A stretch of 64,000 nt of DNA from Pontimonas salivibrio (GCF_002950575.1 NZ_CP026923.1:1550001-1614000); one strand, 5' to 3'. Counted from the stretch's first letter, positions 1,974-46,974 are shown. The notes: generated by a model from the sequence alone, not told the origin. Translations and numbers: made by a program.

Positions 1974-2834
1974 ATGGTTCAGATTGGAATGAGCACCAGC
2001 TGCACACACAGCTATCCCCTGGAGGAAACCTTCCGACTGTCGGCCGATATCGGCTTTGACGGCATTGAAGTGATGGTCATGCACGACCCGCGCACCCGCA
2101 GTGCCGAAGCGCTCACCACGTTGGCTGCCGAATATTCACAGCCCATCCTCTCCGTTCACGCCCCCGTGCTGTTGGCGACCAGTTTTGTGTTCGGGCTTTC
2201 CGCCAAATCGAAGCTGGAAAAATCGGCGCAACTCGCCCGCGCTGTTGGCGCCCCCACGGTCGTTGTTCACCCACCGTTTCGGTGGCAGGGCGGCTACAGC
2301 AAAGTCTTTGCAGAAATTGTTGGCGAAATCGCCCACGACTACGGTGTCGAAATCGCGGTCGAAAACATGTTTGGTTGGAATGCCGGCCGTGCACACCTCG
2401 ATGCCTACGCCCCCACGTGGAACCCAGGCGCCCTGCCGATCGATGCGCTCACGTTGGACTTTTCCCACGCTGCCCTCAACGGCTCCAGCGGTTTAGATCT
2501 CGCCCAAGATTGGGGCGAGCGTCTTCGACACGTGCACCTGTGTGATGGGACTTTTCCTGATGACAACCCCCACCTTTTCGATGAGCACCTCGCCCCGGGT
2601 GACGGATCTCAACCCATTGGTGGAGTGTTGGAACAACTCACCCAGTCGGGCTTTGACGGTGCGGTGATTGCCGAAGTCTCAACCGCTAAAGATCGCACCC
2701 GGGCGGCAAAAGTCGAGCGTCTCACGCGTACGCTGGAATTTGCCAAAAGCCAGCACAGCCACGCGGTCACCACACTTCCACTGGCTCAACCTCTTCCCGA
2801 ACGGGAACAGGTTGTGTTAGCCAAGGCCAGCTGA
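1974..2834 (+). CDS. Sugar phosphate isomerase/epimerase-like TIM barrel protein
   Basis: Protein of 286 residues of the AP-endonuclease-2/xylose-isomerase-like TIM barrel family (PF01261 type). Motifs include IGMSTSCTHSYPLEE at the start, GFDGIEV, SVHAPV, VVHPPFRWQGGY, VENMFGW, LTLDFSHA and HVHLCDG; the His/Glu/Asp set fits a metal site. The GGAGGATGACGTC ribosome binding site supports the ATG. It sits head to head with otsA over 140 bp. Members act as isomerases, epimerases or dehydratases on sugars or inositol; the substrate cannot be read from sequence. It is only distantly similar to the oiaC gene at 10.9 kb. Confidence 0.8.
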   Translation: MVQIGMSTSCTHSYPLEETFRLSADIGFDGIEVMVMHDPRTRSAEALTTLAAEYSQPILSVHAPVLLATSFVFGLSAKSKLEKSAQLARAVGAPTVVVHPPFRWQGGYSKVFAEIVGEIAHDYGVEIAVENMFGWNAGRAHLDAYAPTWNPGALPIDALTLDFSHAALNGSSGLDLAQDWGERLRHVHLCDGTFPDDNPHLFDEHLAPGDGSQPIGGVLEQLTQSGFDGAVIAEVSTAKDRTRAAKVERLTRTLEFAKSQHSHAVTTLPLAQPLPEREQVVLAKAS

Positions 2835-5052: not shown

Positions 5053-6270
5053 ATGAGAAGCGAAGAGTTTGTTTTCGAAGGATCCATGGGGCCACTATCG
5101 GGAAGGCTGAGCCTGCCCGATCGCCCCGTCACCCACAGTGCACTGTTCGCGCACTGCTTCACCTGCTCCAAGGACATCCCTGCGGCGAAGCGCATCACCA
5201 GTGCCCTCGCCGCGCGGGGTATCGCGGTGTTGAGTTTTGACTTCACTGGCCTTGGCCACTCGGATGGGGAGTTTGAAAACACCAACTTCAGCTCCAACGT
5301 CGAAGACCTCCGCGCCGCAGCAACAGCACTAGAGACGCGGGTTGCGCCACCCAGTCTCTTGGTGGGCCACTCCTTGGGAGGTGCGGCGGTCATTGCCGCA
5401 GCACCCACACTGCCTTCCGTGAAAGCTGTCGCCACCATTGGGGCACCATCTGACCCCGAACACGTTCAAGGCCTCTTTCGTGATCGGGTCCCAGAAATTA
5501 ACGACCGCGGCTTTGCCGAGGTTGACCTCGCCGGCCGCACCTTCACCATCACCAAGCAGTTCGTTGACGACGTGGGTAGCGCCAATCTTCACGGGGCCCT
5601 GTTGAAGTTAGACGCTGCTCTGTTGATCATGCATTCTCCGGTTGATGAGATTGTGAATGTGTCCAATGCGGCAGAAATCTTCACAGCTGCCCTGCACCCC
5701 AAGTCGTATGTGTCACTGGATGACGCCGACCATTTGATGCGGCGGGTGGCCGATGCAGAATATGCCGCCTCAGTCATCACCGCCTGGGCTGGCCGCTATC
5801 TCCCCCCAGCCCCGCCAGGCAGCGCTCAGAATGCACCCGATGGTGACGTGTTGGTCTCTGAGGTGTCCCCTGACGGTTTTGCCCACGACGTGTTGGTCGC
5901 AGGAACACACCAATTAAGCGCTGACGAACCAGAGGATGTGGGTGGGACAAACACCGGCCCCACCCCTTACCAATTCCTCGCTGCAGGGTTAGGTGCCTGC
6001 ACATCAATGACCATTCGCCTCTACGCGAGGCGGAAAAAGATTCCCCTCGACCACGTGTCAGTGACCGTTCGGCACGATAAACGCCACGCTGTGGAGTGTG
6101 AACAATGCGAAACGACGGAGCCGAAAGTTGACCACTTTCAGCGCAATATTCGACTGACAGGCGAGCTGAGTGAGGATCAAGTGGCCTCGATGTTGGCGAT
6201 TGCCGATAAATGCCCGGTCCACCGCACCCTCGAGCGAAGCTCACACATTAGTACGACGAGAGTGGCCTGA
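5053..6270 (+). CDS. Bifunctional alpha/beta hydrolase - OsmC family protein
   Basis: 405-residue fusion. Residues 1 to about 255 are an alpha/beta hydrolase with nucleophile elbow GHSLGGAAV near residue 100, an acid near HSPVDEIV and a histidine in DDADHLM. Residues about 270-405 are an OsmC/Ohr-type domain with the two redox cysteines in GACTSMTIRLYA and DKCPVHRTLE. OsmC proteins reduce organic hydroperoxides; this fusion is a known architecture. GAGGAG precedes the ATG at good spacing. Likely role: detoxification of peroxides or hydrolysis of activated acyl compounds; the substrate is unknown. Confidence 0.9.
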   Translation: MRSEEFVFEGSMGPLSGRLSLPDRPVTHSALFAHCFTCSKDIPAAKRITSALAARGIAVLSFDFTGLGHSDGEFENTNFSSNVEDLRAAATALETRVAPPSLLVGHSLGGAAVIAAAPTLPSVKAVATIGAPSDPEHVQGLFRDRVPEINDRGFAEVDLAGRTFTITKQFVDDVGSANLHGALLKLDAALLIMHSPVDEIVNVSNAAEIFTAALHPKSYVSLDDADHLMRRVADAEYAASVITAWAGRYLPPAPPGSAQNAPDGDVLVSEVSPDGFAHDVLVAGTHQLSADEPEDVGGTNTGPTPYQFLAAGLGACTSMTIRLYARRKKIPLDHVSVTVRHDKRHAVECEQCETTEPKVDHFQRNIRLTGELSEDQVASMLAIADKCPVHRTLERSSHISTTRVA

Positions 6271-6899: not shown

Positions 6900-7328
6900 A
6901 TGAGTAATTTCAGCGTGACGAACATTGGCCCAATGGATTCCTGGCGGGAACACTTCGGTGGGTTTGTTCCCGAGACCAGCCGCGACGGTAGACGGGTGGT
7001 CGATCACGAGCTGGACACCGAAATCATCGGCTTTACGGCCACCGCTTACGAACCAGGCGAAGAAGCCGGCTACTGGCACAGCCACTCAACGCTCGAAGAG
7101 GTCTACGTCTTTTTAGAAGGCGAAGGCCAAATGGGCCTCGATGACCAAGTCATCGACGTCCACCCCGGAACGGTTGTCCACGTGGGAACGGGCGTCATGC
7201 GTACCTGGCGCGCACTCCCGGACTCCCCCGCCCAGTTGCGCTGGTTGTGTCTGCGTGCAGGGCAGATCCCCCTACCGGCCATTCCGGATGATGCGATTCC
7301 TATTCGCGACATTCCGATGCCCTGGTAG
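6900..7328 (+). CDS. Cupin domain protein
   Basis: 142-residue single-domain cupin. The first cupin motif shows metal-type histidines and glutamate in YWHSHSTLEEVYVFLEGEG; the second motif (HPGTVVHVGTGVMRTW) keeps one histidine. The family includes isomerases, dioxygenases and sugar-binding proteins; the substrate is unknown. The last 17 codons, ending IRDIPMPW, occur again in degraded form at 12.6 kb on the far side of the apionate island, so this 3' end appears to mark an insertion site. Confidence 0.85.
   Translation: MSNFSVTNIGPMDSWREHFGGFVPETSRDGRRVVDHELDTEIIGFTATAYEPGEEAGYWHSHSTLEEVYVFLEGEGQMGLDDQVIDVHPGTVVHVGTGVMRTWRALPDSPAQLRWLCLRAGQIPLPAIPDDAIPIRDIPMPW
7276..7328 (+). repeat. Left copy of 53-bp direct repeat flanking the apionate island
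   Basis: The last 53 bp of the cupin gene including its stop codon. The right copy is at 12611-12663; 49 of 53 bases match, with differences at repeat positions 10, 17, 26 and 42. Weaker similarity, interrupted by a 2-nt insertion, continues about 40 bp upstream of both copies. Same orientation; about 5.3 kb apart. Confidence 0.9.
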
Positions 7329-7394: not shown

Positions 7395-8129
7395 CTAAGA
7401 ACTACTCGCGGCCTTTAGCCTCCGTGCTGCGGTGGTCATGTGCCCGGCCATTGCGGACGCGGCGGCATCACCGTCACGAGCCCTTATCGCGTCATAAACC
7501 TGAGCGTGCTCCCGGAGCGCGACTTCGGCCTGTTCTGAATCTTGAACGGCCCGGTCTGCCCACACGCGTAGGAGAGACCTGATGATCTGAAGAGTGTCCA
7601 GCAAGACGGCATTGGCTGTCGCCTCTGCAAGCTCCAGATGAAATCTCAGGTCAGCCTCTACGAACGCTCCCATATTGTGTAGCGACGACTCCATCGCGGC
7701 CAGGTGTTCCGCGAGGCGCGATACCGACATTTCCGACATTCTCTCGGCAGCAAGTCGCGCCGCATAAATCTCCAGGGCGCCGCGCATTTCAATCAATTCT
7801 TCAGTAGATCGCTTACCGATAAGAATCCCCCACCGCAGACTTTGGGGCAGAAGTTCACTCGTTGAACCCCGCAAGTAGGTACCCGAACCCGGTCGAACAT
7901 CCACAACGCCGAGAATTTCGAGGGCCGCGAGCGCCTCCCGGACCGCTGACCTGCCGACTGCGAGCACCTTCGCGAGTTCCCTCTCGGGAGGAAGGCGGGT
8001 TCCGGGGGAGATTGAGCCGCTGGTGAAGAGGTCCAGCAGGCTTGTCGCAACGGTCGAGACCGACTTCTCGCTGGTTAACGGCGTGAGCGCCCCGCTAATG
8101 TCGGAGCTGTCGTCAGGATAGGCCGGCAT
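7395..8129 (-). CDS. GntR/FadR-family transcriptional regulator of the apionate island
   Basis: DNA-binding regulator of about 244 residues. Winged helix near residues 25-85 (PGTRLPPERELAKVL, GRSAVREALAALEILG, RPGSGTYL) is typical of GntR. The C-terminal all-helical FCD domain carries ligand/metal residues in EMRGALEIYAARLAAERM and DLRFHLELAEAT plus a later histidine. The ATG at 8129 overlaps the end of apnL by 17 nt; longer starts inside apnL are possible. Last gene of the minus-strand SDR-apnL-gntR operon. It probably senses an apionate-pathway metabolite and binds the palindrome at 10724. Confidence 0.88.
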   Translation of the reverse strand: MPAYPDDSSDISGALTPLTSEKSVSTVATSLLDLFTSGSISPGTRLPPERELAKVLAVGRSAVREALAALEILGVVDVRPGSGTYLRGSTSELLPQSLRWGILIGKRSTEELIEMRGALEIYAARLAAERMSEMSVSRLAEHLAAMESSLHNMGAFVEADLRFHLELAEATANAVLLDTLQIIRSLLRVWADRAVQDSEQAEVALREHAQVYDAIRARDGDAAASAMAGHMTTAARRLKAASSS

Positions 8130-9918
8130 GTTTCGACGGTAGCGGATTGGCTGCATCCGGACCGCCAATGTGAACAAACGAGAAAGCACCGACGGTCACT
8201 GAGCCTGATAGTCCGGCGCCTTCATAGCTGAGTGTTCGTTGGTCTGGTGTCAGGTTTGCCGCGAGAATACTCACGTCTTCACCTGAGACAGCGGCAATCA
8301 CATTGATGCCGACCTCCGGTGTCTCAGCGACGGACATGTGGTGGCCCGTCAGTGAGTGAAGGATCGACAGGGCGTGGCCAGCAGGATCCAGTGATCCTTG
8401 AGAGTCCCTTATCCCTCTAGGACCCCATTCCTCGAAATAGCAAATGCTTTCTGCCCCGGCCAAGGCAGCAACTGAAGCAACGACCCAGGCTCCAACAGCC
8501 GCAGAGTGTTGTCGGGGGTCGACTGAGTCAGCAAGTCGCTCGGGGCCATAACCGTGAGTGAGGTTGTCGGGTTCTTCCGGAGGCGGCGTGGTAGCAACGG
8601 CATTGAATCGCGGCCGTAGTGTGACGGGACCGACATGCACCGGGCGTCCACCTGCAATCCGGTGTGCGTTTTTGAGCACTTCTGTCTGAATAGAAAGCGA
8701 TTCAACGATTTGTGATCGCTCCCTGACATGCATTTGAGGCGTGACACTTATTGTGACCGCTGGGGCATCAGCAGGTAGGTGGGAACTCGTACGGTTGAAC
8801 TCGGTGAAGTGGGAACGGGCTCCCGCCACGAGGTCAATACTGAGCCCTCGGCGTGCAACTTCCCCGACAAGCGCTCCCCACAGGTCAGGTTCTGTGACGT
8901 GGCTCTTGGCCCCAAATACTCCAAGGCGCACTACCGAACCGGTGCCAGAAGCCTCAACCAGATCGAGTAGACCGGCAATCTCGTCAGAGCTCTGAACAAC
9001 AAGGCGAACATCCAACGGAAGACCCGCTGTCCTGGCACGGCGAAGGATGGCTGCGCGATTGGCTGACCGTGCATCGATCTCCACGAGCACTGTGGAAGCA
9101 GGCGGTGGCGGCATATCGAGTCCACCCTCCTGGGCTGTGGCAGCGCCCACGGCAATTGCCGGCATTGTCCCGCGGTCAACCAGACGGAGAACAGAGTCCC
9201 TGGTTGATACCGCTTTGGCCACCCGGCGAGCGTTGAGGTGCAGCGCCTGGGTGAATGAAGTTCCTGCCGGCAGGAAGACCGGGAAAGGTTCTTGGAGCGG
9301 AGTGCTGTATGTCTTGAAGGACGCATCGGTCCAATTCCGCTGATCCTCCATCTCGAAAATCTCGCCCTCGAAGGTTAAGTGTGCGTCCACACCGTCGACG
9401 CTCCACCGCATGCCCACGATATCGACGGCCGGCTGGTGGGGGCTGATCTCCTGCGGGAAGGCAGAAACCTCGGAGCGGGAGTCTGAATGAATGACAGTGA
9501 GGGGAGAGCCGGCCACATCCGGAGGATGAAGTACCACCAGTCCGAGCCTGTTACGCCAAAAGTCTGTGATGCACGTTCCACTGAAGACCACTCTTAGGCC
9601 ATCCGTTGCGTCGACTAACAAGGATGCCTCGAGTTCGATGCCGAACCCCGCCATTTGTAGCTTCAGCTCAAGCCCCACCTCGCGAGAGTGCACTTCGAGT
9701 ATCTCTACCGGCAGTGTCTGCCAGTCACGGTCCCTCGCGACGGCACGTATTGCTCGAAGCACCATTGTCCCGTCGAAGCTGAGGTTGGCGAGTTCCTCGC
9801 CCCGTCTCTCAAATGCCCACGGTCCAGCCGACCATTGCTCGGGCGGTGGTTCGGCGAACCCCCATGCTTCATTTGCACGCGCGTGTGCATCGAGGTGAGG
9901 CTCTGCCGGGGTGACCAT
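8113..9918 (-). CDS. apnL: D-apionolactonase (D-apionate lactonase)
   Basis: 601-residue protein that I recognise as the ApnL family, which hydrolyses D-apionolactone to D-apionate in D-apiose breakdown. Shared family signatures are VLRAIRAVARDRDW near residue 55, CITDFWRNRLGLVVLHPP near 140, and FEMEDQRNWTDASFKTY near 210. The rest is a beta-rich N-terminal part and a larger C-terminal region. The ATG overlaps the SDR stop codon (TGATG), so translation is coupled. No signal peptide is seen, so cytoplasmic. Recognition is from memory of the family; it is strengthened by oiaC and apnO next door. Confidence 0.82.
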   Translation of the reverse strand: MVTPAEPHLDAHARANEAWGFAEPPPEQWSAGPWAFERRGEELANLSFDGTMVLRAIRAVARDRDWQTLPVEILEVHSREVGLELKLQMAGFGIELEASLLVDATDGLRVVFSGTCITDFWRNRLGLVVLHPPDVAGSPLTVIHSDSRSEVSAFPQEISPHQPAVDIVGMRWSVDGVDAHLTFEGEIFEMEDQRNWTDASFKTYSTPLQEPFPVFLPAGTSFTQALHLNARRVAKAVSTRDSVLRLVDRGTMPAIAVGAATAQEGGLDMPPPPASTVLVEIDARSANRAAILRRARTAGLPLDVRLVVQSSDEIAGLLDLVEASGTGSVVRLGVFGAKSHVTEPDLWGALVGEVARRGLSIDLVAGARSHFTEFNRTSSHLPADAPAVTISVTPQMHVRERSQIVESLSIQTEVLKNAHRIAGGRPVHVGPVTLRPRFNAVATTPPPEEPDNLTHGYGPERLADSVDPRQHSAAVGAWVVASVAALAGAESICYFEEWGPRGIRDSQGSLDPAGHALSILHSLTGHHMSVAETPEVGINVIAAVSGEDVSILAANLTPDQRTLSYEGAGLSGSVTVGAFSFVHIGGPDAANPLPSKHAGLS

Positions 9919-10670
9919 CAGAGGGTCGTCATGCCGCCGTCAACAGCGAATGACGCTCCGGTCGCGAATGCGGCATCGTCGCTCGCGAGGTACACCATCA
10001 CTCCCGCGATGTCGTCGGGCGAACCGGGACGCCCCAGAGGAATCCGACCAATAATGGCTGCTCTGGCTTGTGGATCTTCGGCAATGGCCGTCACGAGACG
10101 CGTTTCGGTGTAGGCCGGGACCACGGTGTTCACGCGGATGTTGTGGGCGGAATAGGCCGCTGCCGTGGTTCGAGTCATCCCATGGATACCTGCCTTAGAT
10201 GCGCTGTAGGCCGCAAAACTCGCGCCCTCACCGTTTAGTGCGGTCGGGCTACCCGTGAGGATTATCGATCCACCACCCAGCGTCATCATCGCGCGAACCG
10301 CGTGCTTCACGGTAAGGAAAGTGCCGGTGAGGTTGATGTCGATTGTGCGCTTCCAGGTGTCGAGGTCAAGCTCAGCAATCGGTGCGTCCTCACCGAAAAG
10401 TTGCACTCCGGCGTTTGCGACCACGACGTCCGGGCCCCAGCCCGATGCAACGAGATCCTCGAAAGCGCTCACGACGCTTGACTCATCGGCGATATCCATA
10501 CCGACCCCTCGCGCGTTGGGGTGGGCGTCTGCCGCCGCCGTGGCACCTGCAACATCTCGATCGGCGAACACTACCCGCGCGCCCTCTTGGACGAATCGGT
10601 CAGCCACCGCACGGCCAATCCCCTGTGCCGAGCCCGTCACTAGGGCGGTCTTACCGCTTAATCGGGCCAT
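9918..10670 (-). CDS. SDR-family dehydrogenase of the apionate island
   Basis: 250-residue classical short-chain dehydrogenase/reductase. Cofactor motif TGSAQGIG at residues 12-19, an aspartate after the second strand (FADRD) favouring NAD, NAG motif ANAGVQ, catalytic Ser in ILTGSPTAL, and YSASK with Tyr and Lys, followed by RVNTVVPAYTET. First gene of the operon leading into apnL. Known apiose pathways open with a Gfo/Idh/MocA-type apiose dehydrogenase, which is absent here, so this SDR may oxidise D-apiose to the lactone or act later on erythrulose. Function inferred from context only. Confidence 0.9.
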   Translation of the reverse strand: MARLSGKTALVTGSAQGIGRAVADRFVQEGARVVFADRDVAGATAAADAHPNARGVGMDIADESSVVSAFEDLVASGWGPDVVVANAGVQLFGEDAPIAELDLDTWKRTIDINLTGTFLTVKHAVRAMMTLGGGSIILTGSPTALNGEGASFAAYSASKAGIHGMTRTTAAAYSAHNIRVNTVVPAYTETRLVTAIAEDPQARAAIIGRIPLGRPGSPDDIAGVMVYLASDDAAFATGASFAVDGGMTTL

Positions 10671-10723
10671 TTCGGCTCCTCGTCGTTGAACATGGGGACG
10701 CTAGCAGGAAACAGTGTAGGCTA

Positions 10724-10739
10724 AACCGGTCAACCGGTT
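10724..10739. promoter_or_regulatory. Palindromic operator between divergent apionate operons
   Basis: AACCGGT-CA-ACCGGTT, perfect 7-bp arms around 2 bp, 53 bp upstream of the SDR start and 154 bp upstream of oiaC. Its placement in the divergent promoter region suggests the binding site of the island GntR regulator. Binding is not demonstrated; the sequence could equally suit a LacI-type protein. Confidence 0.55.
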
Positions 10740-10893
10740 GTGCAATATGAACAAGTCGTCCGGCCTCATTTCGGGAGAAATCCATGGACCACAACAGCTC
10801 CCTCCAATGCGCGACTAACCCAGGCCCCCGCATCGCGAGCATATTGGCGCAAAGCCCGCAGGCGATAGAACGCGAGCGCTTCGGAGTCTCACA

Positions 10894-11700
10894 ATGATCG
10901 GCCTCAGCACTTACTCGTTCTTCTGGGAACACAAACTGTCGGTGCCGGACGGGCCCAACCTCCAACCACTCGACCTTCCTGGCATGCTGCGAGCTACTGC
11001 CGATCAAGGCGTCCACCTGCTTCAAATTTGCGACTATGCGCCCTTGTTTGACCTAGACGAAAAGGGTTTAGCTGACCTTCGAGGACTCGCAGACAGCCTG
11101 GGCATCCAACTGGAGCTCGGAACACGAGTCGTCACGCCGAGTCACCTCGAGCGGATGCTGACCACCTCGCTCGCCCTCGGAGCTACCTTCGTTCGCAGCA
11201 TGCTCTCCGACGCCAACTCGCGACCCTCAACCCGGGAAGCAGAACGGTGGCTCAGACAAGAGCTCCCCCACTGGGAAGCAGCTGGTGTCACCCTCGCCCT
11301 AGAAACCTACGAACAGATTCCCGTGGCCGAGCTTGTCGACCTCGTGGCCCGCATCGACAGCCCCTCGCTCGGGATTTGCCTCGATCCCGCTAATTCGGTA
11401 GCGGCGTTGGAGAACCCCCGCGACACGGTCGAGCGATGTGCACCCTATGTGGCGGGACTTCACATCAAAGATTTTTCGTTTACTCGGCACGAACAGTGGG
11501 TCGGCTTTCGGCTCTCCGGTACCCCACTGGGACACGGATTGCTCGACTACCGCCACCTGATGGATACCGTTCGTCCCGAGGAACGAGGAATCAACCGGGT
11601 AGTAGAACACTGGTTGCCCTGGCAGGGCACACAAACCGACACAATCCGCCTAGAGCGCGAATGGACCACCACCGCACTCGCCTACATGAAGGAGCACTAA
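10894..11700 (+). CDS. oiaC: 3-oxo-isoapionate decarboxylase (TIM barrel)
   Basis: 268-residue xylose-isomerase-like TIM barrel. Start IGLSTYSFFWEHKLSVP, then LLQICDYAPL, QLELGTRVV, LALETYEQIP, GICLDPANSVA, GLHIKDFSF and a C-terminal VVEHWLPW match what I recall of OiaC, which decarboxylates 3-oxo-isoapionate to L-erythrulose and CO2. Conserved Glu, Asp and His residues suit a divalent metal site. GGAG lies 7 nt before the ATG. Two bases separate it from apnO, so they form one operon divergent from SDR-apnL-gntR. An isomerase of the same fold is the alternative. Confidence 0.78.
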   Translation: MIGLSTYSFFWEHKLSVPDGPNLQPLDLPGMLRATADQGVHLLQICDYAPLFDLDEKGLADLRGLADSLGIQLELGTRVVTPSHLERMLTTSLALGATFVRSMLSDANSRPSTREAERWLRQELPHWEAAGVTLALETYEQIPVAELVDLVARIDSPSLGICLDPANSVAALENPRDTVERCAPYVAGLHIKDFSFTRHEQWVGFRLSGTPLGHGLLDYRHLMDTVRPEERGINRVVEHWLPWQGTQTDTIRLEREWTTTALAYMKEH

Positions 11701-11702
11701 CC

Positions 11703-12560
11703 ATGTCCGACAATCTGACAATCGCCGTAATCGGCGCCGGAGGAAAAATGGGGATGCGTGTCTCCGCCAACCTCATGAAGACCGACCACACGGTGTTCTA
11801 CTCAGAAAACTCCCCTGCCGGTCAAGAACGTGTCACCGACGCCGGGCGAACATTGACGGCCACAGATGATGCGGTGAAGGTGTCCGATGTTGTGGTGCTG
11901 GCCGTACCCGACCTCGCCCTCAGCGCAGTGAGCGATGCGGTTGTCCCGCTGATGAAATCTGGCGCTATCCTGCTGACGCTCGACCCAGCAGCCGCTTACG
12001 CTGGCTTACTCGCTACGCGCGACGACATCATCCAAGGGGTGACACACCCTTGCCACCCGTCAGTATTCGTCGAGCGACACACCCCCGAGGAGTATGCGGA
12101 CACCTTTGGAGGTATTGCCGCAAAGCAAGACGCGATTGCCGCAATCGAGAGCGATAGCACCGTGGCCCGCGACACCCTGGAAGCGGTGGTGAGAGTTATT
12201 TTCGCCCCAGTAGTGGATGTGCACTGGGTCACAGTGAAACAACTCGCCCAACTAGAGCCAACCCTGGTTGAGACAATCGCCTGCATGGTGGGGGCACTGC
12301 TGAAGGAAGCGCTCGACGAAGCGGTAAACACCATGGGAGTTCCCGAACCTGCGGCACGGGCTATTCTGCTTGGTCACACTCAGGTTGCCCTAGCCAACAC
12401 ACTCAAGGGTGATAACCCCTTCAGTGAGGCATGCCTCATCGCAATGGACTATGGCCGAGAAGCGATCATCAAGGAGGATTGGAAGAAAGTGTTCCGCGAT
12501 GACGAGCTGGACAAAAACTTGGCCCGGATGCTCCACCTCGATCACGTGTCCCGAAAATAG
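11703..12560 (+). CDS. apnO: D-apionate oxidoisomerase
   Basis: 285-residue NAD(P)-dependent enzyme related to 6-phosphogluconate/3-hydroxyisobutyrate dehydrogenases. N-terminal Rossmann motif VIGAGGKMGMRVSANL, then DVVVLAVPDLAL, TLDPAAAYAG and THPCHPSVF; the helical C-terminal half has ETIACMVGALLKEALDEAV and ILLGHTQVALANTL. This combination fits the ApnO family, which converts D-apionate to 3-oxo-isoapionate, the substrate of the oiaC product. The ATG follows the oiaC stop by two bases; an upstream extension of the frame lies inside oiaC and is rejected. Confidence 0.8.
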   Translation: MSDNLTIAVIGAGGKMGMRVSANLMKTDHTVFYSENSPAGQERVTDAGRTLTATDDAVKVSDVVVLAVPDLALSAVSDAVVPLMKSGAILLTLDPAAAYAGLLATRDDIIQGVTHPCHPSVFVERHTPEEYADTFGGIAAKQDAIAAIESDSTVARDTLEAVVRVIFAPVVDVHWVTVKQLAQLEPTLVETIACMVGALLKEALDEAVNTMGVPEPAARAILLGHTQVALANTLKGDNPFSEACLIAMDYGREAIIKEDWKKVFRDDELDKNLARMLHLDHVSRK

Positions 12561-12570
12561 ACACGACTCG

Positions 12571-12663
12571 ATGCGCCGGGTCGCTACACACCGGGCAAAT
12601 TCCCCCCACCCGGCCATTCAGGATGACGCGATTCCCATTCGCGACATTCCGGTGCCCTGGTAG
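12571..12663 (+). pseudogene. Degraded 3' end of a cupin gene (right island scar)
   Basis: About 93 bp similar to the 3' end of the cupin gene at 6900-7328. The last 53 bp (12611-12663) match at 49 positions and still encode DDAIPIRDIP-V-PW and a stop. Upstream, similarity fades and a 2-nt insertion breaks the frame. No start or cupin core is left. It lies 10 bp after the apnO stop, so it forms the right edge of the island, displaced from the intact cupin gene by about 5.3 kb. Confidence 0.8.
12611..12663 (+). repeat. Right copy of the 53-bp direct repeat
   Basis: 49 of 53 bases equal the left copy at 7276-7328. Two of the four differences are silent third-position changes (GAT/GAC, CCT/CCC), one changes Pro to Gln and one Met to Val, which suggests divergence between two related cupin alleles rather than a very recent duplication. 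Confidence 0.9.
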
Positions 12664-12724: not shown

Positions 12725-13105
12725 TTACGTCTGTGAGGGCGACCCCTTGGGCACACCAGGGGGTTTCCCTTCCGGAGTGTCGTCACTTGTTGAGCGGGCG
12801 ATGGCGGCCGAGAGGGCCACAATGCGATCCCGGTCACGTTGGTCTTGTGCCATTTCCTGGTTCCACGACTCGACCTGTCGTGAGAGGGCACGCGGCACGG
12901 GTGAACCTTCAGCGTGGAGTTTTTCCACCCGATCCAACACAGCGCGTCGCTGGCGGGGGGCTAAGACTTTGGTCCACAGCCCATAAATATCCGGGTACAA
13001 CACCTTGTAGACGGTGGCCAGCAGCAGGGCCACTGATCCGAGAAGCACGAGGCGCCCAAAAACTTCCGCAAGCCAGCCCGGCAACACCTGATAGTGCCAC
13101 GGCAC
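12725..13105 (-). pseudogene. C-terminal membrane-anchor part of a split TAXI receptor
   Basis: 126-codon frame whose first half is a membrane helix (FGRLVLLGSVALLLATVYKVL) followed by a charged coiled-coil-like region (RRAVLDRVEKLHAEG onward). It is in the same frame as the TAXI protein just upstream: only one TAA and six sense codons (reading DFYRVG) lie between. Longer TAXI proteins have exactly such a C-terminal tail, with an FY motif then a PGWLA/PFWLA-type helix. The GTG at 13105 has no ribosome binding site. It may therefore be a nonsense-interrupted tail, or a separately translated membrane partner. Confidence 0.65.
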
Positions 13106-13123
13106 GCCAACGCGGTAGAAGTC

Positions 13124-14020
13124 TTACGCAACCGTATTGGCCGAGAGTTGGAGGTCCATGAAGTTCGGAAAAGTGGTGCCTTGCACGGTGGAGGAGGGCG
13201 AACCAAATTGGTCCTGAAGACGCGACGCAATCTGCAGGGTAATTGCTGCCGGCAAATCCTCACGAGCCACCACGGTGACCGGCACACCCACCGTGTGAAG
13301 TGGACCACTGGGGACCGACCCCGCAATGTCGAGAAGACCCGGTGGGATGGTCAGGCTGCGAACGTAACCAATTTCACTCGCCAGCGCTTCGGTGGTGGCG
13401 ATATCGACGAGGGTCAGCTGGGGGTCTGCGGCCAGTTGCCGAACGATGGGGGTGTGAACGGGAAACAGGACTCCCACTACGTCGGTTTCTCCACGTCGAA
13501 CCGACAGGATGCCCTCGTTCAGAGTCCCGTAGCGCGGTTCGACGTCGAGGTCGTAGGCATCAAACACCTCACTGGCGAGTTGATCAAAACCGCTGCCTTT
13601 TACCTGCATCCACACGGAGCGGCCCTCAAGGTCCGACACGGAAAGGTTTGCGCCCAGATCAGTGCGCGCAAATAAGAGCAAAGGCTCCAATTCGATTGAC
13701 CCCAAAGAGGTCACATTGGGGTAGTTTGCGGCGTCGATTTTTTGGGCAATAAACCCGACGTTGACTGGATTGTCGGGGTCTTGGACGCTCTCAATAATGT
13801 TGAGCGTGTCATCTCGGGAAGTAAGTTCCACATCGACACCTTCGGCGGACAGGTGTCGCGCAAGACCGTCACCCGTTTCGTAGAAGAAACCGGCTTTGGG
13901 ACCGGCCTCGATGACAACGGAGCGATCCCACGAAATCGTCGCGGCGATGAAACCCACACCGCCTAACACGAGGGTGAGAAAAAGCCCTGTCGCGAAGAGA
14001 ACACTCCGTGCGATTGGCAC
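13124..14020 (-). CDS. TAXI-family TRAP transporter solute-binding protein (truncated by stop)
   Basis: 298-residue receptor of the TAXI family, which binds small carboxylates for TRAP transporters. The N-terminus has one membrane or signal segment (SVLFATGLFLTLVLGGVGFIAA), then the binding domain with AGPKAGFFYETGDGLA, VNVGFIAQ, GRSVWMQVKGSGFD and RRGETDVVGVLFPV. I start at the GTG at 14020, after AAAGGG at proper spacing. No TRAP membrane subunits are nearby. The frame ends in TAA at 13126-13124, after which the same frame continues with the usual C-terminal anchor of long family members; the unbroken frame would total about 431 residues. Confidence 0.8.
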   Translation of the reverse strand: MPIARSVLFATGLFLTLVLGGVGFIAATISWDRSVVIEAGPKAGFFYETGDGLARHLSAEGVDVELTSRDDTLNIIESVQDPDNPVNVGFIAQKIDAANYPNVTSLGSIELEPLLLFARTDLGANLSVSDLEGRSVWMQVKGSGFDQLASEVFDAYDLDVEPRYGTLNEGILSVRRGETDVVGVLFPVHTPIVRQLAADPQLTLVDIATTEALASEIGYVRSLTIPPGLLDIAGSVPSGPLHTVGVPVTVVAREDLPAAITLQIASRLQDQFGSPSSTVQGTTFPNFMDLQLSANTVA

Positions 14021-14066
14021 TCGAGGGCCCTTTCTTCCGTGCTCCCAGCATTCCACCGAAGCGGCC

Positions 14067-15282: not shown

Positions 15283-15516
15283 ATGACTCTTCCCCCCGCA
15301 CATCTCAACGCACCTGCCGACTTCGGCATGGCACTCCAGCAAGCCCGAATGTCTCGGGCACTGACCCAACAGGAACTCGCCGACCTCGTCGGAGTCCCCC
15401 AAAGCACCGTCAGTCAAATGGAGAGTGGCCAGGCGACCCTTTACTTGCGACGACTCCTCGACCTGGCGCAGGCCACAGGCCTGCACTTCCAGGCAACCTG
15501 GGACGACCATGACTGA
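15283..15516 (+). CDS. hipB: HipB-type XRE antitoxin
   Basis: 77-residue helix-turn-helix protein of the Cro/C1 (XRE) class: [34 protein letters not shown] spans the DNA-binding helices, here quoted only as a region near residues 16-50. Such proteins neutralise HipA and repress their own operon. I use the ATG at 15283 because GGAG sits six bases before it; an ATG at 15271 would add four residues. It overlaps hipA by 8 nt, and two matching palindromes lie over its promoter. Confidence 0.88.
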
Positions 15517-16723
15517 ACTGACCGTCTTGCTCTATGGGACGAAGGTCGGTGTGCTGCACGGAGACAACCGGACATTCGACTTCCACCCGACGGCTGAGGC
15601 GATTGAACGATTCGGCCCAGGTTCGACGCAGCTGTCGCTCGCTCTTCCACTATCCGTTCAACAGCCTCGGCATTTGGCAAAAAGACGCCGGAACTGGTTT
15701 CGTGAGCTACTCCCAGAAGGTGACTTCCGCACGTATTTATCGAATCAGGCAGGACTCATCCAAACGGACACTCTCGGACTTCTCGCCCGCTACGGTCGCG
15801 ATGTTGCGGGTGCCGTGGAAATCCTGGCGGAAGATCAGTCCCCGACGGAAACCCCCACACTTTCCCCCATCGACGAGTCCACCATTCGCGAGTACCTCAC
15901 CAACCCTCTCCTCGCCCCTTTGGGCAACAGGCCACCGGGAGGCAAAACCTCCCTCGCCGGGGTTCAACCCAAAGTGCTCCTCACCCACAGAGAAGGTCAA
16001 TGGCACACCGCAGCAGGCGGTGCGCCCTCAAGCCACATCGTGAAGCCAGAACTCCCGACCCCTCGCCACAGCGCAATCTACGACGAAGAATATGGCCTTC
16101 GGCTCGCCCGGAGGATTGGACTCTTACGCTACGAGACATCACTGCACACTTTCGACTCGCTGGGTGCCCTCGTCATCGAGCGCTACGACCGAGAGGGGCT
16201 CACCCGGGTACACCAGGAAGACTTCAGCCAAATTCTGGGTGCTTCGGGAGTGGAGAAGTATCAAGAATATGGCGGTCGCGTCTCGCTCTCACGCGTGGCA
16301 GAGGCCGTCACTCGGCATCTGCCGTCCCCCGAGCTGGCACAACTCGCGACACTGGTCAGTTTCTCAGTGGCGATTGGAAACCTCGACCTTCACACAAAGA
16401 ACATCAGTGTGCTGCACCCACAGGATCTCCCCGCCCGGCTTGCACCCGCTTACGACTGTCAGCCCCACGCCCATCGTGACGACACTGACGGTCGCATGGC
16501 CCTGTCTGTTGGTGGCGAATACCGGTGGAAGGCCATCACGAGGCAACACCTAGAAGCGGAATTCCGGTCGTGGGGCCTTCGCTCACCAGGCACGCTGATC
16601 GATACAGTCGCCGACGGGCTCCAGGCCGCGGTCTCCGAGGAGGCACCCGACAATCGAGCAGACCCACGCATGCTCCCTATGGTCCACACGGGAATTGAGA
16701 AGCTCCGGGGAGGGGACGCATAA
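15509..16723 (+). CDS. hipA: HipA-type serine/threonine kinase toxin
   Basis: 404-residue HipA family kinase. N-terminal subdomain (LTVLLYGTKVGVL, RRNWFRELLPEGDFR), glycine-rich loop GGKTSLAGVQPKVLL near residue 150, HIVKPE lysine, catalytic loop NLDLHTKN near residue 292 and the metal-binding AYDCQPH. HipA in E. coli phosphorylates glutamyl-tRNA synthetase and triggers persistence. All catalytic residues I can check are present, so it is likely active. The start overlaps hipB (8 nt), so the frame upstream of 15509 is not used. Confidence 0.9.
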   Translation: MTELTVLLYGTKVGVLHGDNRTFDFHPTAEAIERFGPGSTQLSLALPLSVQQPRHLAKRRRNWFRELLPEGDFRTYLSNQAGLIQTDTLGLLARYGRDVAGAVEILAEDQSPTETPTLSPIDESTIREYLTNPLLAPLGNRPPGGKTSLAGVQPKVLLTHREGQWHTAAGGAPSSHIVKPELPTPRHSAIYDEEYGLRLARRIGLLRYETSLHTFDSLGALVIERYDREGLTRVHQEDFSQILGASGVEKYQEYGGRVSLSRVAEAVTRHLPSPELAQLATLVSFSVAIGNLDLHTKNISVLHPQDLPARLAPAYDCQPHAHRDDTDGRMALSVGGEYRWKAITRQHLEAEFRSWGLRSPGTLIDTVADGLQAAVSEEAPDNRADPRMLPMVHTGIEKLRGGDA

Positions 16724-42471: not shown

Positions 42472-43446
42472 TTATTTCCGCGACACGCCGTGAGCGGCGG
42501 AATATTCTCGCCAGGCGGAGCTGACCATTTCCGCCACCGACTGCTGCATGGTCCATCCCACATCGCGGGCTGCGGCCTCACCGGAGGCGACAACCTTCAT
42601 CGGATCGCCTGCCCGGCGGGGCCACGCTTCGGGTTCAAAGTCAATGCCCGTGACTCTCGCCACTTCGGTCATCATCTGCGCCACGCTTGAACCGGTGCCG
42701 CTGCCGAGGTTGTAGGCGCCCTGCAGGGGCTGACCGGAGACAAGCTTTTCAGCCACCTGGACGTGGGCGTCGGCGAGCGCTTGCACGTGAATGTAGTCGC
42801 GAATGCAGGTGCCGTCCGGGGTGTCATAGTCGGTGCCAAACACTCCAGGGGTTTCTCCCCTACCCAACGCGGCGAACACCATAGACAGCAACGAGTAGGG
42901 GCTGGTGTCATAGATACCTGGCACCCCGGATCCCACCACGTTGAAGTACCGAAGCGAACAGTGTTTCAGGCCCGTGGCAACACCCTGGTCGCGCAAAATC
43001 CACTCGCCCACCAGTTTGGATTCACCGTAAGGCGAGGCTGGGTTTTTGGGCGCATCTTCATGAATAACCGGTGCATCCACATCGCCATAGACGGCGGAGG
43101 TGGAAGAAAACACGATGTGTCCAACACCGGCGCGCTCCATAGCTTCCAAGAGTCGAAGCATCCCGACAACGTTTTGGTCGTACGTCAGGAGTGGTTTTTC
43201 GACACTTACCCCTGCGTGTTTAAACCCGGCGAAGTGAATTACCCCGTCCACGTGGTGGCTAAACGCTTCATCGAGTGCACCTGGGTTCGTCACCGACCCA
43301 CGAACAAGGACGACCCCTTCGGGGAGGACCTCTGCCCGGCCAGAGGAGAGGTCGTCGATGACGACGACCTCGTGACCGGCGTTAACTAGTGAGTAAACGG
43401 TATGCCCACCGATGTATCCGGCGCCTCCGGTGACGAGAAATTTCAT
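42472..43446 (-). CDS. galE: UDP-glucose 4-epimerase
   Basis: 324-residue extended SDR epimerase interconverting UDP-glucose and UDP-galactose (or the GlcNAc forms). NAD motif GGAGYIGG at residues 7-14, FSSTSAVYGD with catalytic Ser, YGESK with Tyr and Lys, DYIHV and the C-terminal sugar-binding region are present. The ATG at 43446 is seven bases after TAGGCT (leaderless). Supplies sugars for the glycan cluster. Confidence 0.95.
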   Translation of the reverse strand: MKFLVTGGAGYIGGHTVYSLVNAGHEVVVIDDLSSGRAEVLPEGVVLVRGSVTNPGALDEAFSHHVDGVIHFAGFKHAGVSVEKPLLTYDQNVVGMLRLLEAMERAGVGHIVFSSTSAVYGDVDAPVIHEDAPKNPASPYGESKLVGEWILRDQGVATGLKHCSLRYFNVVGSGVPGIYDTSPYSLLSMVFAALGRGETPGVFGTDYDTPDGTCIRDYIHVQALADAHVQVAEKLVSGQPLQGAYNLGSGTGSSVAQMMTEVARVTGIDFEPEAWPRRAGDPMKVVASGEAAARDVGWTMQQSVAEMVSSAWREYSAAHGVSRK

Positions 43447-43453
43447 GATGCCG

Positions 43454-43459
43454 AGCCTA
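43454..43459 (-). promoter_or_regulatory. -10 box (TAGGCT) of leaderless galE promoter
   Basis: TAGGCT, seven bases (CGGCATC), then the galE ATG. The frame upstream of this ATG has no support. Confidence 0.4.
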
Positions 43460-43578
43460 CCCAGGAGACTGTGGGCGAAGGCAACACGAGAAGCCAGACG
43501 CGCCGGCACAGCCAACGACACCGCGCGGTAAACACCGGAATCAGCAGTGGTCGACTAAGGCCGACGTGTACGGTGCTC

Positions 43579-44799
43579 CTACTGTGGCACCTGCTGTGAG
43601 ACCTGCTGTCGGACCTCACTGGGACTGGCCCACCACAGTTCACCTGATCCTTCCAAAGTGAGCGGTGATTCTGATTGGCTGACCGCCCAGGCTTCACCGC
43701 GGCTCGCGGTAATCGATCCACGGGGTCCACGCACCTGCCAACTTCCCGCAGTGCATAAGACGATGCTGGGGCCGCTTAGCGTAATGCGCTCTTGAAGCCC
43801 ACTGCCGTGCAACCTGGACAACTGAAAACCGTGACCGGCCGGTCGATAAGTACTCACCCCGGAATCATCCACCTCTGGGGTCAGGCGTGGCGCATCGCCT
43901 GGCTGCAAGACGACCACGTCTAAAAACGCCTCCACATCGACGTGTTTTGTGGTGAGACCACCGCGGAGGACATTGTCACTGGGGGCCATTAATTCCACGG
44001 CGTAGCCCTCGAGGTAAGCGTGCGGGACTCCCGCATCAACAAACAGTGCCTCGCCGGGGTCGAGGTCTACCCGGTGGAGCAACATGGCCACGGCGATTCC
44101 CGCGTCCCCGGGGAAATGTTTCTGCAAGCGCAAGATGGTGTCGGTCGCGAGGCGTACAGGGTTGTGTCCTGTCATGCCCTCTGCACGGTCACCTTGGGTA
44201 ACTGGTGCTTCAGCGAGTTGACCCAATTGACCCACCAACTCCAGAACATCTTCGCCGCCACGCAACAACCACCCCAGTGTCTGCGCAATACCGTCCTGCT
44301 CGAGGCGAGAAATGTAGTCATCGACGGCGGGCGCATCGCTTCTGCCTCGAAGCTCAGTGAGTGCGTCAATCGTCTGGGTCACAGGGCGCACACCCGCTAA
44401 GGCGTGGAAGCCTCCCTCTAAGGCGACAACGAGTTCCGGTTTTGCGAAACGGTCTTTGAATAACCGGTTACTGGCATCAAGTGAGACCCCCTGTTGAACT
44501 TCACGGTCGTAGCCTTCGTGGGCCTGCTCGGTGCTGGGGTGCACCTGCAGTGACAGCGGCATGGTGGGGGCTAAGACTTTGAACAGATAGGGCAAATCGG
44601 AACGCGCGTCGTAGCGCTGCAACCACTGCGCCAATGGCCCCCCGTCAGCAGCCAGGGTGCTGGGGCGCACCGGGTGGACACCCAGCCACCATTCGGCTTC
44701 GGGTTTGTCTGAGGCGCTCCACCCGAAAAGCTCCGAAATGGCGCCGCTTCCTCCCCACGGGTAGTGGGCGAGGGTTCGGCTCAGTTTCGCTATTGCCAT
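43579..44799 (-). CDS. manA: Mannose-6-phosphate isomerase, class I
   Basis: 406-residue type I phosphomannose isomerase interconverting fructose 6-phosphate and mannose 6-phosphate. Zinc-site region LSLQVHPSTEQAHEGY near residue 88, KPELVVALEGGFHALAGVRP, and a C-terminal cupin with GVPHAYLEGYAVELMAPSDNVLRGGLT. The start overlaps the end of the ParB-like gene upstream by 10 bp. Its product would feed manB and, by inference, the nonulosonate genes at 45.8 kb. Confidence 0.95.
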   Translation of the reverse strand: MAIAKLSRTLAHYPWGGSGAISELFGWSASDKPEAEWWLGVHPVRPSTLAADGGPLAQWLQRYDARSDLPYLFKVLAPTMPLSLQVHPSTEQAHEGYDREVQQGVSLDASNRLFKDRFAKPELVVALEGGFHALAGVRPVTQTIDALTELRGRSDAPAVDDYISRLEQDGIAQTLGWLLRGGEDVLELVGQLGQLAEAPVTQGDRAEGMTGHNPVRLATDTILRLQKHFPGDAGIAVAMLLHRVDLDPGEALFVDAGVPHAYLEGYAVELMAPSDNVLRGGLTTKHVDVEAFLDVVVLQPGDAPRLTPEVDDSGVSTYRPAGHGFQLSRLHGSGLQERITLSGPSIVLCTAGSWQVRGPRGSITASRGEAWAVSQSESPLTLEGSGELWWASPSEVRQQVSQQVPQ

Positions 44800-45734
44800 G
44801 TGGTCCCCGCCTGATGGTGCCAGCCGTGTCGGCTGAGAAGATTAAGCGCACCACGGTTGTGCTGGTAGGTCTGGCCCACCACGGCCACTCGACCGATGGC
44901 GTCTCGAAGGGATTGTTCAAACTCGGCCGCGACGATGTCCCTGGCAGTCGAGGTCTTCTTAATACGCTCCAGCTGGTGGTGCGCTAAGCGCAACCGCACC
45001 ACCTCGAGTGAACCTTCACGAAGCTCTGTCCTGGCCGGTTGGCGTTTACTGGCCTTTTCGTGCCACGGAATGTCGCGCATGATGCGCTCCAATTCGCTCA
45101 CCTCGGCTTGGGGTAGCGACACTGACCATTCTCGAACCACTTTCATGCCCGCGGGAAGCAGTGGTGCCAACCATGAGCGGGTGGGTTGGGAAGTACTGGG
45201 CGTGACCACAATGGTGTCGACCCCGGTGTGGGCCATCGCCCGGTCAAGCTCGGCGTCCATTGCCAAGAGGGCCTGCTCGGGCAAGCCCGCGTCGACAAAC
45301 CAGCGCCGCTCGAAGGGCCGAAGCCTTTTCGACATGCGCACATCAATAGCAATCGTCGCTTCGTTGCGCGCTAGGGCGATGGCGAAACGGTGGGCACCAT
45401 CCAGCAGGCTGCCTCGGGGTGAAATCCCGATCGGAAAATCGGGATCCAACCCGACGTCCTTGACCGCTCGGGCTAGGTCTTTAAAGGCCACCAAGGTGTC
45501 TTTATTGGCCCGCAGTGATTGCATGGTGTGGTACCAGGAGGTTTCTTTGGTGGCGCGTGTGGGGGGTTTATCCCGCAGGAGTTGCTGAGCCACAAGGCTT
45601 CGAAGGAGGACGTCGTAGCGGCCAAAAACACCGCCTTTCCACTGGGCGTGCAATAGCGCACCCAAAGGAAGTCGGGTCTGTAGAACAGGCCCCAGATTGG
45701 CTGAAAGCCAGGGAGCCACACCGGTCAGGCTCAT
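44790..45734 (-). CDS. ParB-like nuclease-fold protein of the glycan cluster
   Basis: 314-residue hypothetical protein. One part resembles the ParB/Srx fold (DFPIGISPRGSLLDGAHRFAIALA), otherwise no recognised domain. Such proteins occur inside bacterial polysaccharide loci, where they may handle nucleotide-like substrates or phosphorylated polyols; this is inference. Coupled to manA by overlap; divergent from the cytidylyltransferase fusion. Confidence 0.65.
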   Translation of the reverse strand: MSLTGVAPWLSANLGPVLQTRLPLGALLHAQWKGGVFGRYDVLLRSLVAQQLLRDKPPTRATKETSWYHTMQSLRANKDTLVAFKDLARAVKDVGLDPDFPIGISPRGSLLDGAHRFAIALARNEATIAIDVRMSKRLRPFERRWFVDAGLPEQALLAMDAELDRAMAHTGVDTIVVTPSTSQPTRSWLAPLLPAGMKVVREWSVSLPQAEVSELERIMRDIPWHEKASKRQPARTELREGSLEVVRLRLAHHQLERIKKTSTARDIVAAEFEQSLRDAIGRVAVVGQTYQHNRGALNLLSRHGWHHQAGTTWQ

Positions 45735-45817
45735 GATGATTTAGCCTAGCCCGGCCAGTCCCTCTCACCCGGCCAGGCTGGCAGGGCGATTTTCGGGGCA
45801 CAGCACAGTGGTGCGGG

Positions 45818-45823
45818 TAGTCT
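45818..45823 (+). promoter_or_regulatory. -10 box (TAGTCT) of leaderless cytidylyltransferase promoter
   Basis: TAGTCT, six bases (TAGCGA), then the GTG at 45830; no ribosome binding site. Confidence 0.5.
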
Positions 45824-45829
45824 TAGCGA

Positions 45830-46966
45830 GTGAGCACAGTCGCCATCATTCCCGCCCGGGGCGGCTCAAAAGGGATTCCCGATAAAAACCTGCAGCCTGT
45901 CTACGGGGTGCCACTTGTCGCGAGAGCCATAAGAAGCGCGCTAGCGACAAGAGGCATCGACCGGGTCTTCGTGTCGACTGACACGGAACGCATTGCGTCT
46001 GTCGCGCAATCCAATGGCGCCACAGTGATCAATCGGCCACCAGAGATCTCGGGTGATGAAGCCAGCAGCGAATCTGCTGTCCTCCACGCCCTCGAATCAA
46101 TTCCCGATGCCGACGTTGTCGTGTTCATCCAGGCCACGAGCCCTTTTATTGACCCGAAGGATTTGGATGAGGCGATCACGATGATGAAATCGGGTCGGTT
46201 CGACGCAGTGTTTTCGGCGACAGAAGATCACGGTTTTCGTTGGGAAGAGCGCGGTGGGGAATTTGTCCCCGTAGGTCACGAAGCAAGCTCCAGACCCCGA
46301 CGTCAAGATTTGCCCCACCGGGTCATCGAAACGGGAGCGTTTTACCTTTTCCGGGCACAGGGCATCCGCACAGCGGGCTCTCGTTTTCACGGCCGAATTG
46401 GTTGCGTCGAAGTGGGTCGGCGGGAATCTCTCGAAATTGACACCCAGGAGGACCTACAACTCGCCCGTGAATTAGCCATGTCAGGCGAATCCACCACCCG
46501 CGTTGGACCCATCGACGCTGTCGTGTTCGATTTTGACGGTGTTCACACCGACGACCACGTCTTCGTCACACAAGACGGTGTGGAGAGTGTGCGGGTGAGT
46601 CGCCGAGACGGCTATGGAATCACTCTTCTGAAGAAAGCCGAAATTCCTCTACTGATTCTCTCTACAGAAAAAAACCCTGTGGTCACTACACGGGCCAAAA
46701 AATTGGGAGTCGACGTCCTGCAAGGACAAGACGACAAAGCCACTGCGCTCACCCAGTGGGCAAAAACACACGACATTGATTTACAACGCGTCGCCTACCT
46801 CGGCAATGACGTCAATGACGCACCCGCATTGGGCGTGGTCGGGTGGCCGGTGGTCACCGGGGATGCGCACCCCGACGTGAAACCGCTCGCTCGGCTGGTC
46901 CTGGAGTCACACGGCGGACGTGGAGCCGTGCGAGAATTAGCTGATTTGATCCTAAAGAGAAGATGA
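45830..46966 (+). CDS. Acylneuraminate cytidylyltransferase - HAD phosphatase fusion
   Basis: 378-residue two-domain enzyme. Residues 1 to about 215 are a CMP-sugar synthetase of the NeuA type (AIIPARGGSKGIPDKNL, VFIQATSPF, EIDTQEDLQLA). Residues about 225-378 are a KdsC-like HAD phosphatase (VVFDFDGVHTDD with motif I aspartates, ILSTEKN, AYLGNDVNDAPAL). The pair suggests removal of phosphate from a nonulosonate 9-phosphate and its activation with CMP. The downstream NeuB-type synthase is coupled or nearly so. The sugar could be Neu5Ac, Kdn or a relative; manA nearby favours Kdn by inference. Confidence 0.88.
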   Translation: MSTVAIIPARGGSKGIPDKNLQPVYGVPLVARAIRSALATRGIDRVFVSTDTERIASVAQSNGATVINRPPEISGDEASSESAVLHALESIPDADVVVFIQATSPFIDPKDLDEAITMMKSGRFDAVFSATEDHGFRWEERGGEFVPVGHEASSRPRRQDLPHRVIETGAFYLFRAQGIRTAGSRFHGRIGCVEVGRRESLEIDTQEDLQLARELAMSGESTTRVGPIDAVVFDFDGVHTDDHVFVTQDGVESVRVSRRDGYGITLLKKAEIPLLILSTEKNPVVTTRAKKLGVDVLQGQDDKATALTQWAKTHDIDLQRVAYLGNDVNDAPALGVVGWPVVTGDAHPDVKPLARLVLESHGGRGAVRELADLILKRR

Positions 46967-46974
46967 GGGTGGTC

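Follow-up and report, generated by a model that had tools for sequence, protein, structure and literature searches.

A probable D-apiose/D-apionate catabolic cassette, reduced relative to its actinobacterial counterparts, in the streamlined genome of Pontimonas salivibrio

We analysed a 64,000-nucleotide stretch of the Pontimonas salivibrio CL-TW6T genome (C1:1550001-1614000 of a single 1,760,810-bp contig, the published genome size; PMC6106888), hereafter the window. At positions 7395-12560 lies an island whose five genes, all intact, form two divergent operons: SDR-ApnL-GntR on the minus strand and OiaC-ApnO on the plus strand, laid out as originally predicted from the sequence. The island represents, in reduced form, a variant of a known pathway that recurs among actinobacteria, and we consider it likely to be a horizontally acquired, reduced cassette for D-apiose/D-apionate catabolism. 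The grouping is far beyond chance, as clusters of these genes were found in dozens of actinobacterial genomes. Apiose is a plant cell-wall sugar whose degradation through D-apionate was reportedly characterised by Carter et al. in 2018; the naming of ApnL, ApnO, OiaC, LerK, LerI, DerI and ApsD used here, and the reactions given for them, follow that work. The features of the island are as follows.

7395..8129 (open reading frame open to 8189), minus strand: GntR/FCD regulator (FadR-type, NanR-like); Pfam FCD 4e-25, GntR 1.4e-16
8113..9918, minus strand: ApnL-like putative D-apionolactonase of the actinobacterial clade, 601 aa; NF049900 179.5 bits, below cut-off
9918..10670, minus strand: classical SDR, proposed D-apiose 1-dehydrogenase; Pfam adh_short_C2 1.1e-58
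10726..10737, no strand: probable GntR operator CCGGTCAACCGG in the divergent promoter; palindrome recurring at cassette genes elsewhere
10894..11700, plus strand: OiaC-like probable 3-oxo-isoapionate decarboxylase, xylose-isomerase-like TIM barrel, 268 aa; AP_endonuc_2
11703..12560, plus strand: ApnO-like probable D-apionate oxidoisomerase, Rossmann and PGDH_C domains, 285 aa; PGDH_C 7.4e-57

Pfam and NCBIfam searches bore out the five names at the family level, the reservation being the ApnL score. The minus-strand genes are joined by successive start/stop overlaps: the SDR stop and the ApnL start share one nucleotide (TGATG), and the GntR start is more likely the ATG at 8129 than the end of the open reading frame at 8189, giving a 17-nt overlap with the ApnL stop. 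OiaC and ApnO are separated by 2 nt. A longer ApnO reading frame from 11436 was rejected as spurious, and the start was placed at the ATG at 11703.

A first survey of 20 Microbacteriaceae neighbourhoods was extended to 80 actinobacterial ApnL loci. An SDR gene was present in 69 of these, ApnO and OiaC in 57 each, orthologs of the GntR regulator (46-65% identity) in 53, LerK and RpiB in 48 each, LerI in 47 and an MFS transporter in 32; because contig ends cut some loci, these counts are lower bounds. Cassettes of the composition SDR-ApnL-GntR/OiaC-ApnO-LerK-LerI-RpiB occur in Microbacterium, Curtobacterium, Arthrobacter, Humibacter and Plantibacter. They share with Pontimonas the gene families, the ApnO/OiaC clade and the operator palindrome, whereas the Pontimonas island has no transporter, LerK, LerI or RpiB. 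The lack of a transporter and an erythrulose kinase within the island had been predicted and was confirmed.

The proteins encoded by the plus-strand operon are the most firmly placed. Pontimonas OiaC is 46-48% identical to proteins from plasmid-borne operons of Pantoea sp. At-9b and Erwinia sp. E602, its best plasmid relatives, which are ordered MFS-LerK (dihydroxyacetone-kinase family)-LerI (TPI-like)-OiaC-ApnO with a divergent RpiB. Pontimonas ApnO is 59-61% identical to the ApnO of these operons and 40% identical to that of Shinella. The two genes are adjacent and in the same order in all three organisms; the Pantoea and Erwinia operons additionally have a SorC-type regulator along with MFS, LerK, LerI and RpiB, whereas the Pontimonas cassette is without these and adds SDR, ApnL and GntR. 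In phylogenetic trees, Pontimonas ApnO and OiaC grouped with LerK-linked actinobacterial sequences, within a clade whose genes share operons with LerK and isomerases in actinobacteria, Pantoea and Erwinia; ApnO of the Shinella type and generic TIM-barrel proteins fell apart from them. The OiaC tree was built with a quick method, and its deep forks are poorly resolved.

The catalytic residues expected of both enzymes were intact. OiaC has a xylose-isomerase-like TIM barrel, and its E-D-H-E metal quartet (E137/D164/H190/E238) is found in every relative, with one gap at E238. ApnO combines the Rossmann and PGDH_C architecture with the NAD motif GAGGKMG (G11/G13/G14/G17) and conserved H115/H118, E185/E190 and H225; its sequence relatives 5t57 and 3c24 are both without assigned function. 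In the NCBIfam search, neither the Pontimonas nor the comparison proteins matched a curated model of an OiaC family. Clade and gene context together make an apionate-pathway role probable for both ApnO and OiaC. A second xylose-isomerase-like TIM-barrel gene (AP_endonuc_2) lies at window positions 1974-2834 on the plus strand, unlinked to the island.

Sequence does not reveal substrate specificity, and the cassette could act on another branched or unbranched sugar acid through ApnO and OiaC homologs of shifted specificity. The seawater habitat of Pontimonas and its lack of a transporter, LerK and LerI would fit such a shift. We nevertheless regard it as improbable, since both proteins belong to a clade linked to LerK, LerI and RpiB, the same regulator site has been retained, and the reading requires an additional event, a switch of substrate in a single reduced member.

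That regulator site lies in the divergent promoter, which carries AACCGGTCAACCGGTT (16-bp context, 10724-10739) around the palindrome at 10726-10737. In other actinobacteria, 99 kb of sequence lying upstream of cassette genes contained the 12-mer core CCGGTYRACCGG nine times, and 1.5 Mb from elsewhere contained it a single time (Fisher p 1.3e-10, or 3.8e-7 with the Curtobacterium loci collapsed); the palindrome sites elsewhere precede SDR, MFS, LerK or GntR genes. CCGGTCAACCGG is therefore the probable GntR operator, to which the regulator would bind. The shared palindrome places both Pontimonas operons in a single GntR regulon with the distant loci.

The catalytic triad of the SDR (S141, Y155, K159) is invariant across 70 sequences, and 69 of the 70 have Asp37, of the NAD type. 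The SDR gene is a same-strand direct neighbour of ApnL in about 53 of the 80 loci. No Gfo/Idh/MocA (ApsD-type) dehydrogenase was found in the island, and only one weak match (25% identity) was found across the 80 loci. Because this family is essentially absent where actinobacterial ApnL occurs, the conserved linkage suggests that the SDR probably oxidises D-apiose in place of the alphaproteobacterial Gfo/Idh/MocA enzyme.

A second known arrangement, that of alphaproteobacteria, differs in several respects. In Shinella HZN7 the order is ApnO, ribose-type ABC transporter, Gfo/Idh/MocA dehydrogenase, ApnL, NanR, OiaX and OiaK, with ApnL and OiaX passing the NCBIfam cut-offs for D-apionate lactonase and OiaX. 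Clusters of this type, including that of strain LCG007, resemble the Pontimonas island in their ApnL and ApnO homologs, a NanR/GntR-type regulator and presumed entry of D-apiose via the lactone. They use a Gfo/Idh/MocA dehydrogenase, a kinase/RuBisCO-like OiaK-OiaX branch and a CUT2 ABC transporter, whereas Pontimonas has the SDR and OiaC. OiaK (DUF1537 N-domain, PF07005) was absent from the Pontimonas genome in a search that gave matches in control genomes, and the kinase/RuBisCO-like route is therefore unavailable to it. Growth on D-apiose was shown for LCG007, a marine Rhodobacteraceae isolate with a related ApnL/ApnO/OiaK/OiaX cluster (PMC11747546), which supports the existence of apiose pathways in the sea.

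The Pontimonas ApnL is divergent. It is 26-29% identical to alphaproteobacterial ApnL and scored 179.5 bits on NF049900 (D-apionate lactonase), for which the curated equivalog cut-off is 750 bits. Controls from Shinella (813), Ensifer, S. meliloti (834), Roseibium and R. phaseoli (1054) passed at 808-1054 bits, while two more distant alphaproteobacterial ApnL proteins, from Paroceanicella (621) and Mesorhizobium (478), were also below the cut-off. The two clades nevertheless share the invariant motif F-E-x-E-D-Q-R-N-W and the residues E189, E191, D192, R194, N195, W196, D198, K202, Y204, E373, N375, R376 and H397. The Pontimonas protein is ApnL-like by its motif and pocket residues, yet it belongs to a divergent sister clade outside the curated family; a lactonase assignment based on the shared motif residues is reasonable. 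Of the three enzyme identities in the original prediction, those of ApnO and OiaC were supported, inside the LerK-linked clade, and that of ApnL stood for the motif residues and failed for the curated family. The concern that all three might fall in sister clades outside the characterised families was borne out for ApnL and not for the other two.

A sequence search of ApnL against the PDB gave no match. An AlphaFold prediction based on 35 family members (pLDDT 92.2) was compared with known structures by Foldseek and VIA-align. Its N-terminal sandwich weakly matched galactose mutarotase, and its C-terminal barrel with a side domain resembled clan GH-A enzymes of GH79, GH51 and GH30 (Z up to 22.9, ~4 Å over ~318 residues, 8-11% identity). 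The catalytic positions of clan GH-A lie after beta-4 (acid/base) and at the end of beta-7 (nucleophile). In the predicted strand order, E373 follows beta-4 and E496 lies at the end of beta-7, so the two may correspond to these positions, an equivalence taken from strand order rather than from superposition. E496 is present in 75 of 81 actinobacterial ApnL proteins and in none of seven alphaproteobacterial ones. A few actinobacterial ApnL proteins are without the beta-7 glutamate (loci L106, L149, L151, L158 and L164), and it appears not to be strictly required within the clade.

These features raise the question of whether actinobacterial ApnL is a glycosidase, such as a cytoplasmic apiofuranosidase, instead of or besides a lactonase. 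It would then free apiose from imported apiosides, and the lactone made by the SDR would open spontaneously. The clan GH-A-like barrel, with glycosidases of GH79, GH51 and GH30 as its best matches (Z 20-23), the two carboxylates at the acid/base and nucleophile positions, and the score below the lactonase cut-off all point in this direction. However, E373, N375, R376 and the whole FExEDQRNW motif also occur in alphaproteobacterial D-apionate lactonases that have no E496, some cassette members have lost E496, and E373 is preceded by Thr rather than the Asn usual in clan GH-A. The residue equivalence itself also comes from strand order, and we consider a glycosidase quite unlikely. A broader proposal is somewhat less doubtful, though still unlikely: actinobacterial ApnL might be a distinct enzyme on a clan-GH-A-like scaffold, with both carboxylates, that may cleave apiosides or act in a glycosidase-like manner on the lactone, paired with a new, non-homologous SDR-type D-apiose dehydrogenase. 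If so, actinobacteria would enter apiose catabolism by a route of their own, assembled separately.

Under our preferred interpretation, a reduced D-apiose/D-apionate cassette, the SDR would use NAD+ to convert D-apiose to D-apionolactone, as its conserved linkage suggests. The ApnL-like protein, assigned at the family level within its divergent clade, would open the lactone to D-apionate. From clade and context, ApnO would then oxidise and rearrange D-apionate to 3-oxo-isoapionate, which OiaC would decarboxylate to L-erythrulose and CO2. GntR would control both operons through the divergent-promoter palindrome and presumably be de-repressed by a pathway intermediate. The conversion of apionolactone to L-erythrulose and CO2 had been proposed before; clade, context and active-site residues are consistent with it, and the SDR moves its likely start one step earlier, to D-apiose. 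Such an apiose breakdown route in Pontimonas is plausible but unproven. Uptake and the fate of L-erythrulose would need genes elsewhere, for which a CUT2 ABC transporter and a DhaK-DhaL pair are candidates.

Genome-wide searches for such partners detected one Dak1 protein (the DhaK of a DhaK-DhaL pair), one RpiB and one TPI (33% identity to LerI). No relative of the cassette MFS transporter was found, and the cassette-type CUT2 binding protein had distant paralogs only (at most 28% identity). The Dak1 protein is a stand-alone DhaK encoded beside DhaL (C1:1219.5-1221.2 kb); their operon also holds genes for a CUT2 ABC transporter, an FGGY kinase, a BtpA/SgcQ protein and a beta-hydroxyacid dehydrogenase. 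The kinase, isomerase and transporter check suggested with the original prediction thus yielded a generic DhaK/DhaL beside another ABC transporter, with no LerI and no match to the cassette MFS. DhaK-DhaL may phosphorylate L-erythrulose; more probably it serves its own locus. This separate sugar locus (C1:1210700-1230600) comprises the CUT2 ABC, DhaK, DhaL, beta-hydroxyacid dehydrogenase and BtpA/SgcQ TIM-barrel genes, two FGGY kinases, and DeoR and SorC regulators.

Several points weigh against an apiose cassette. No ortholog of LerK, LerI or the cassette transporter was detected anywhere in the Pontimonas genome, so L-erythrulose may have no outlet, and the full LerK, LerI and DerI set that would carry D-apionate to D-erythrose-4-P is not present; the model is weakest where it concerns what becomes of L-erythrulose. 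Added to this are the ApnL score far short of the equivalog cut-off, the clade-specific beta-7 glutamate, and an SDR substrate assigned from linkage. No characterised enzyme of this actinobacterial clade was found in the literature examined.

The borders of the island point to its origin.

7268..7328, plus strand: 3' end of a cupin gene (6900-7328), left border of the probably acquired segment; 61-nt direct repeat
12603..12663, plus strand: second copy of the cupin 3' end, marking the right border of the probably acquired segment; 61-nt direct repeat

The two copies are 90% identical, the second lying just after ApnO, and both are about equally similar to the congeners' cupin ends. The cupin gene occurs in 16 of 19 genomes of the genus, Pontimonas included. 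ApnO was found in none of the 18 other genus genomes, several of which are incomplete, the sole match being a 31% fragment (E 4.9e-4). Because the cassette is absent from these 18 congeners and bracketed by the duplicated cupin end, it was probably acquired at the cupin 3' end. A clean empty insertion site was not found in the congeners that share the cupin, because gene order around it is not conserved. Among 250 sampled Microbacteriaceae genomes, 44 encode ApnL, all of about 2.6 Mb or larger except Pontimonas.

The absence of MFS or ABC transporter, LerK, LerI and RpiB genes from the cassette, and its presence in a single genome of the genus, might instead mark a decaying remnant whose upstream half persists in an incomplete and unused pathway. 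We consider this highly improbable: a streamlined 1.76-Mb genome has kept all five genes intact, together with the catalytic residues, the overlaps of starts and stops, and an operator palindrome that is perfect.

Other genes of the window were recorded alongside. At 12725-14056 on the minus strand, a TAXI-family solute-binding gene (13124-14056) ends at a stop codon beyond which the same frame continues with a membrane/cytoplasmic segment of 126 aa; the two look like a single TAXI-TM protein that an in-frame stop has divided. None of the 18 congeners has the TAXI gene. A HipA-like kinase gene (15425-16723, plus strand) lies near the island, and 5053-6270 on the plus strand encodes an alpha/beta hydrolase with a fused OsmC domain. 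Genes for a sugar epimerase and for phosphomannose-isomerase-like, CMP-sugar transferase-like and NeuB family proteins at 42472-47850 suggest a nonulosonic-acid glycan locus.

In this study, we defined an apiose/apionate cassette that recurs among actinobacteria and has a regulator site open to testing. The cassette leads us to predict a D-apiose dehydrogenase of the SDR type in place of the known Gfo/Idh/MocA enzyme, and the predicted glycosidase-like fold of ApnL, together with its clade-specific glutamate, poses a concrete mechanistic question. For Pontimonas itself, our findings suggest that a streamlined bacterium of coastal seas keeps only the core of a plant-sugar pathway that many land actinobacteria appear to use.

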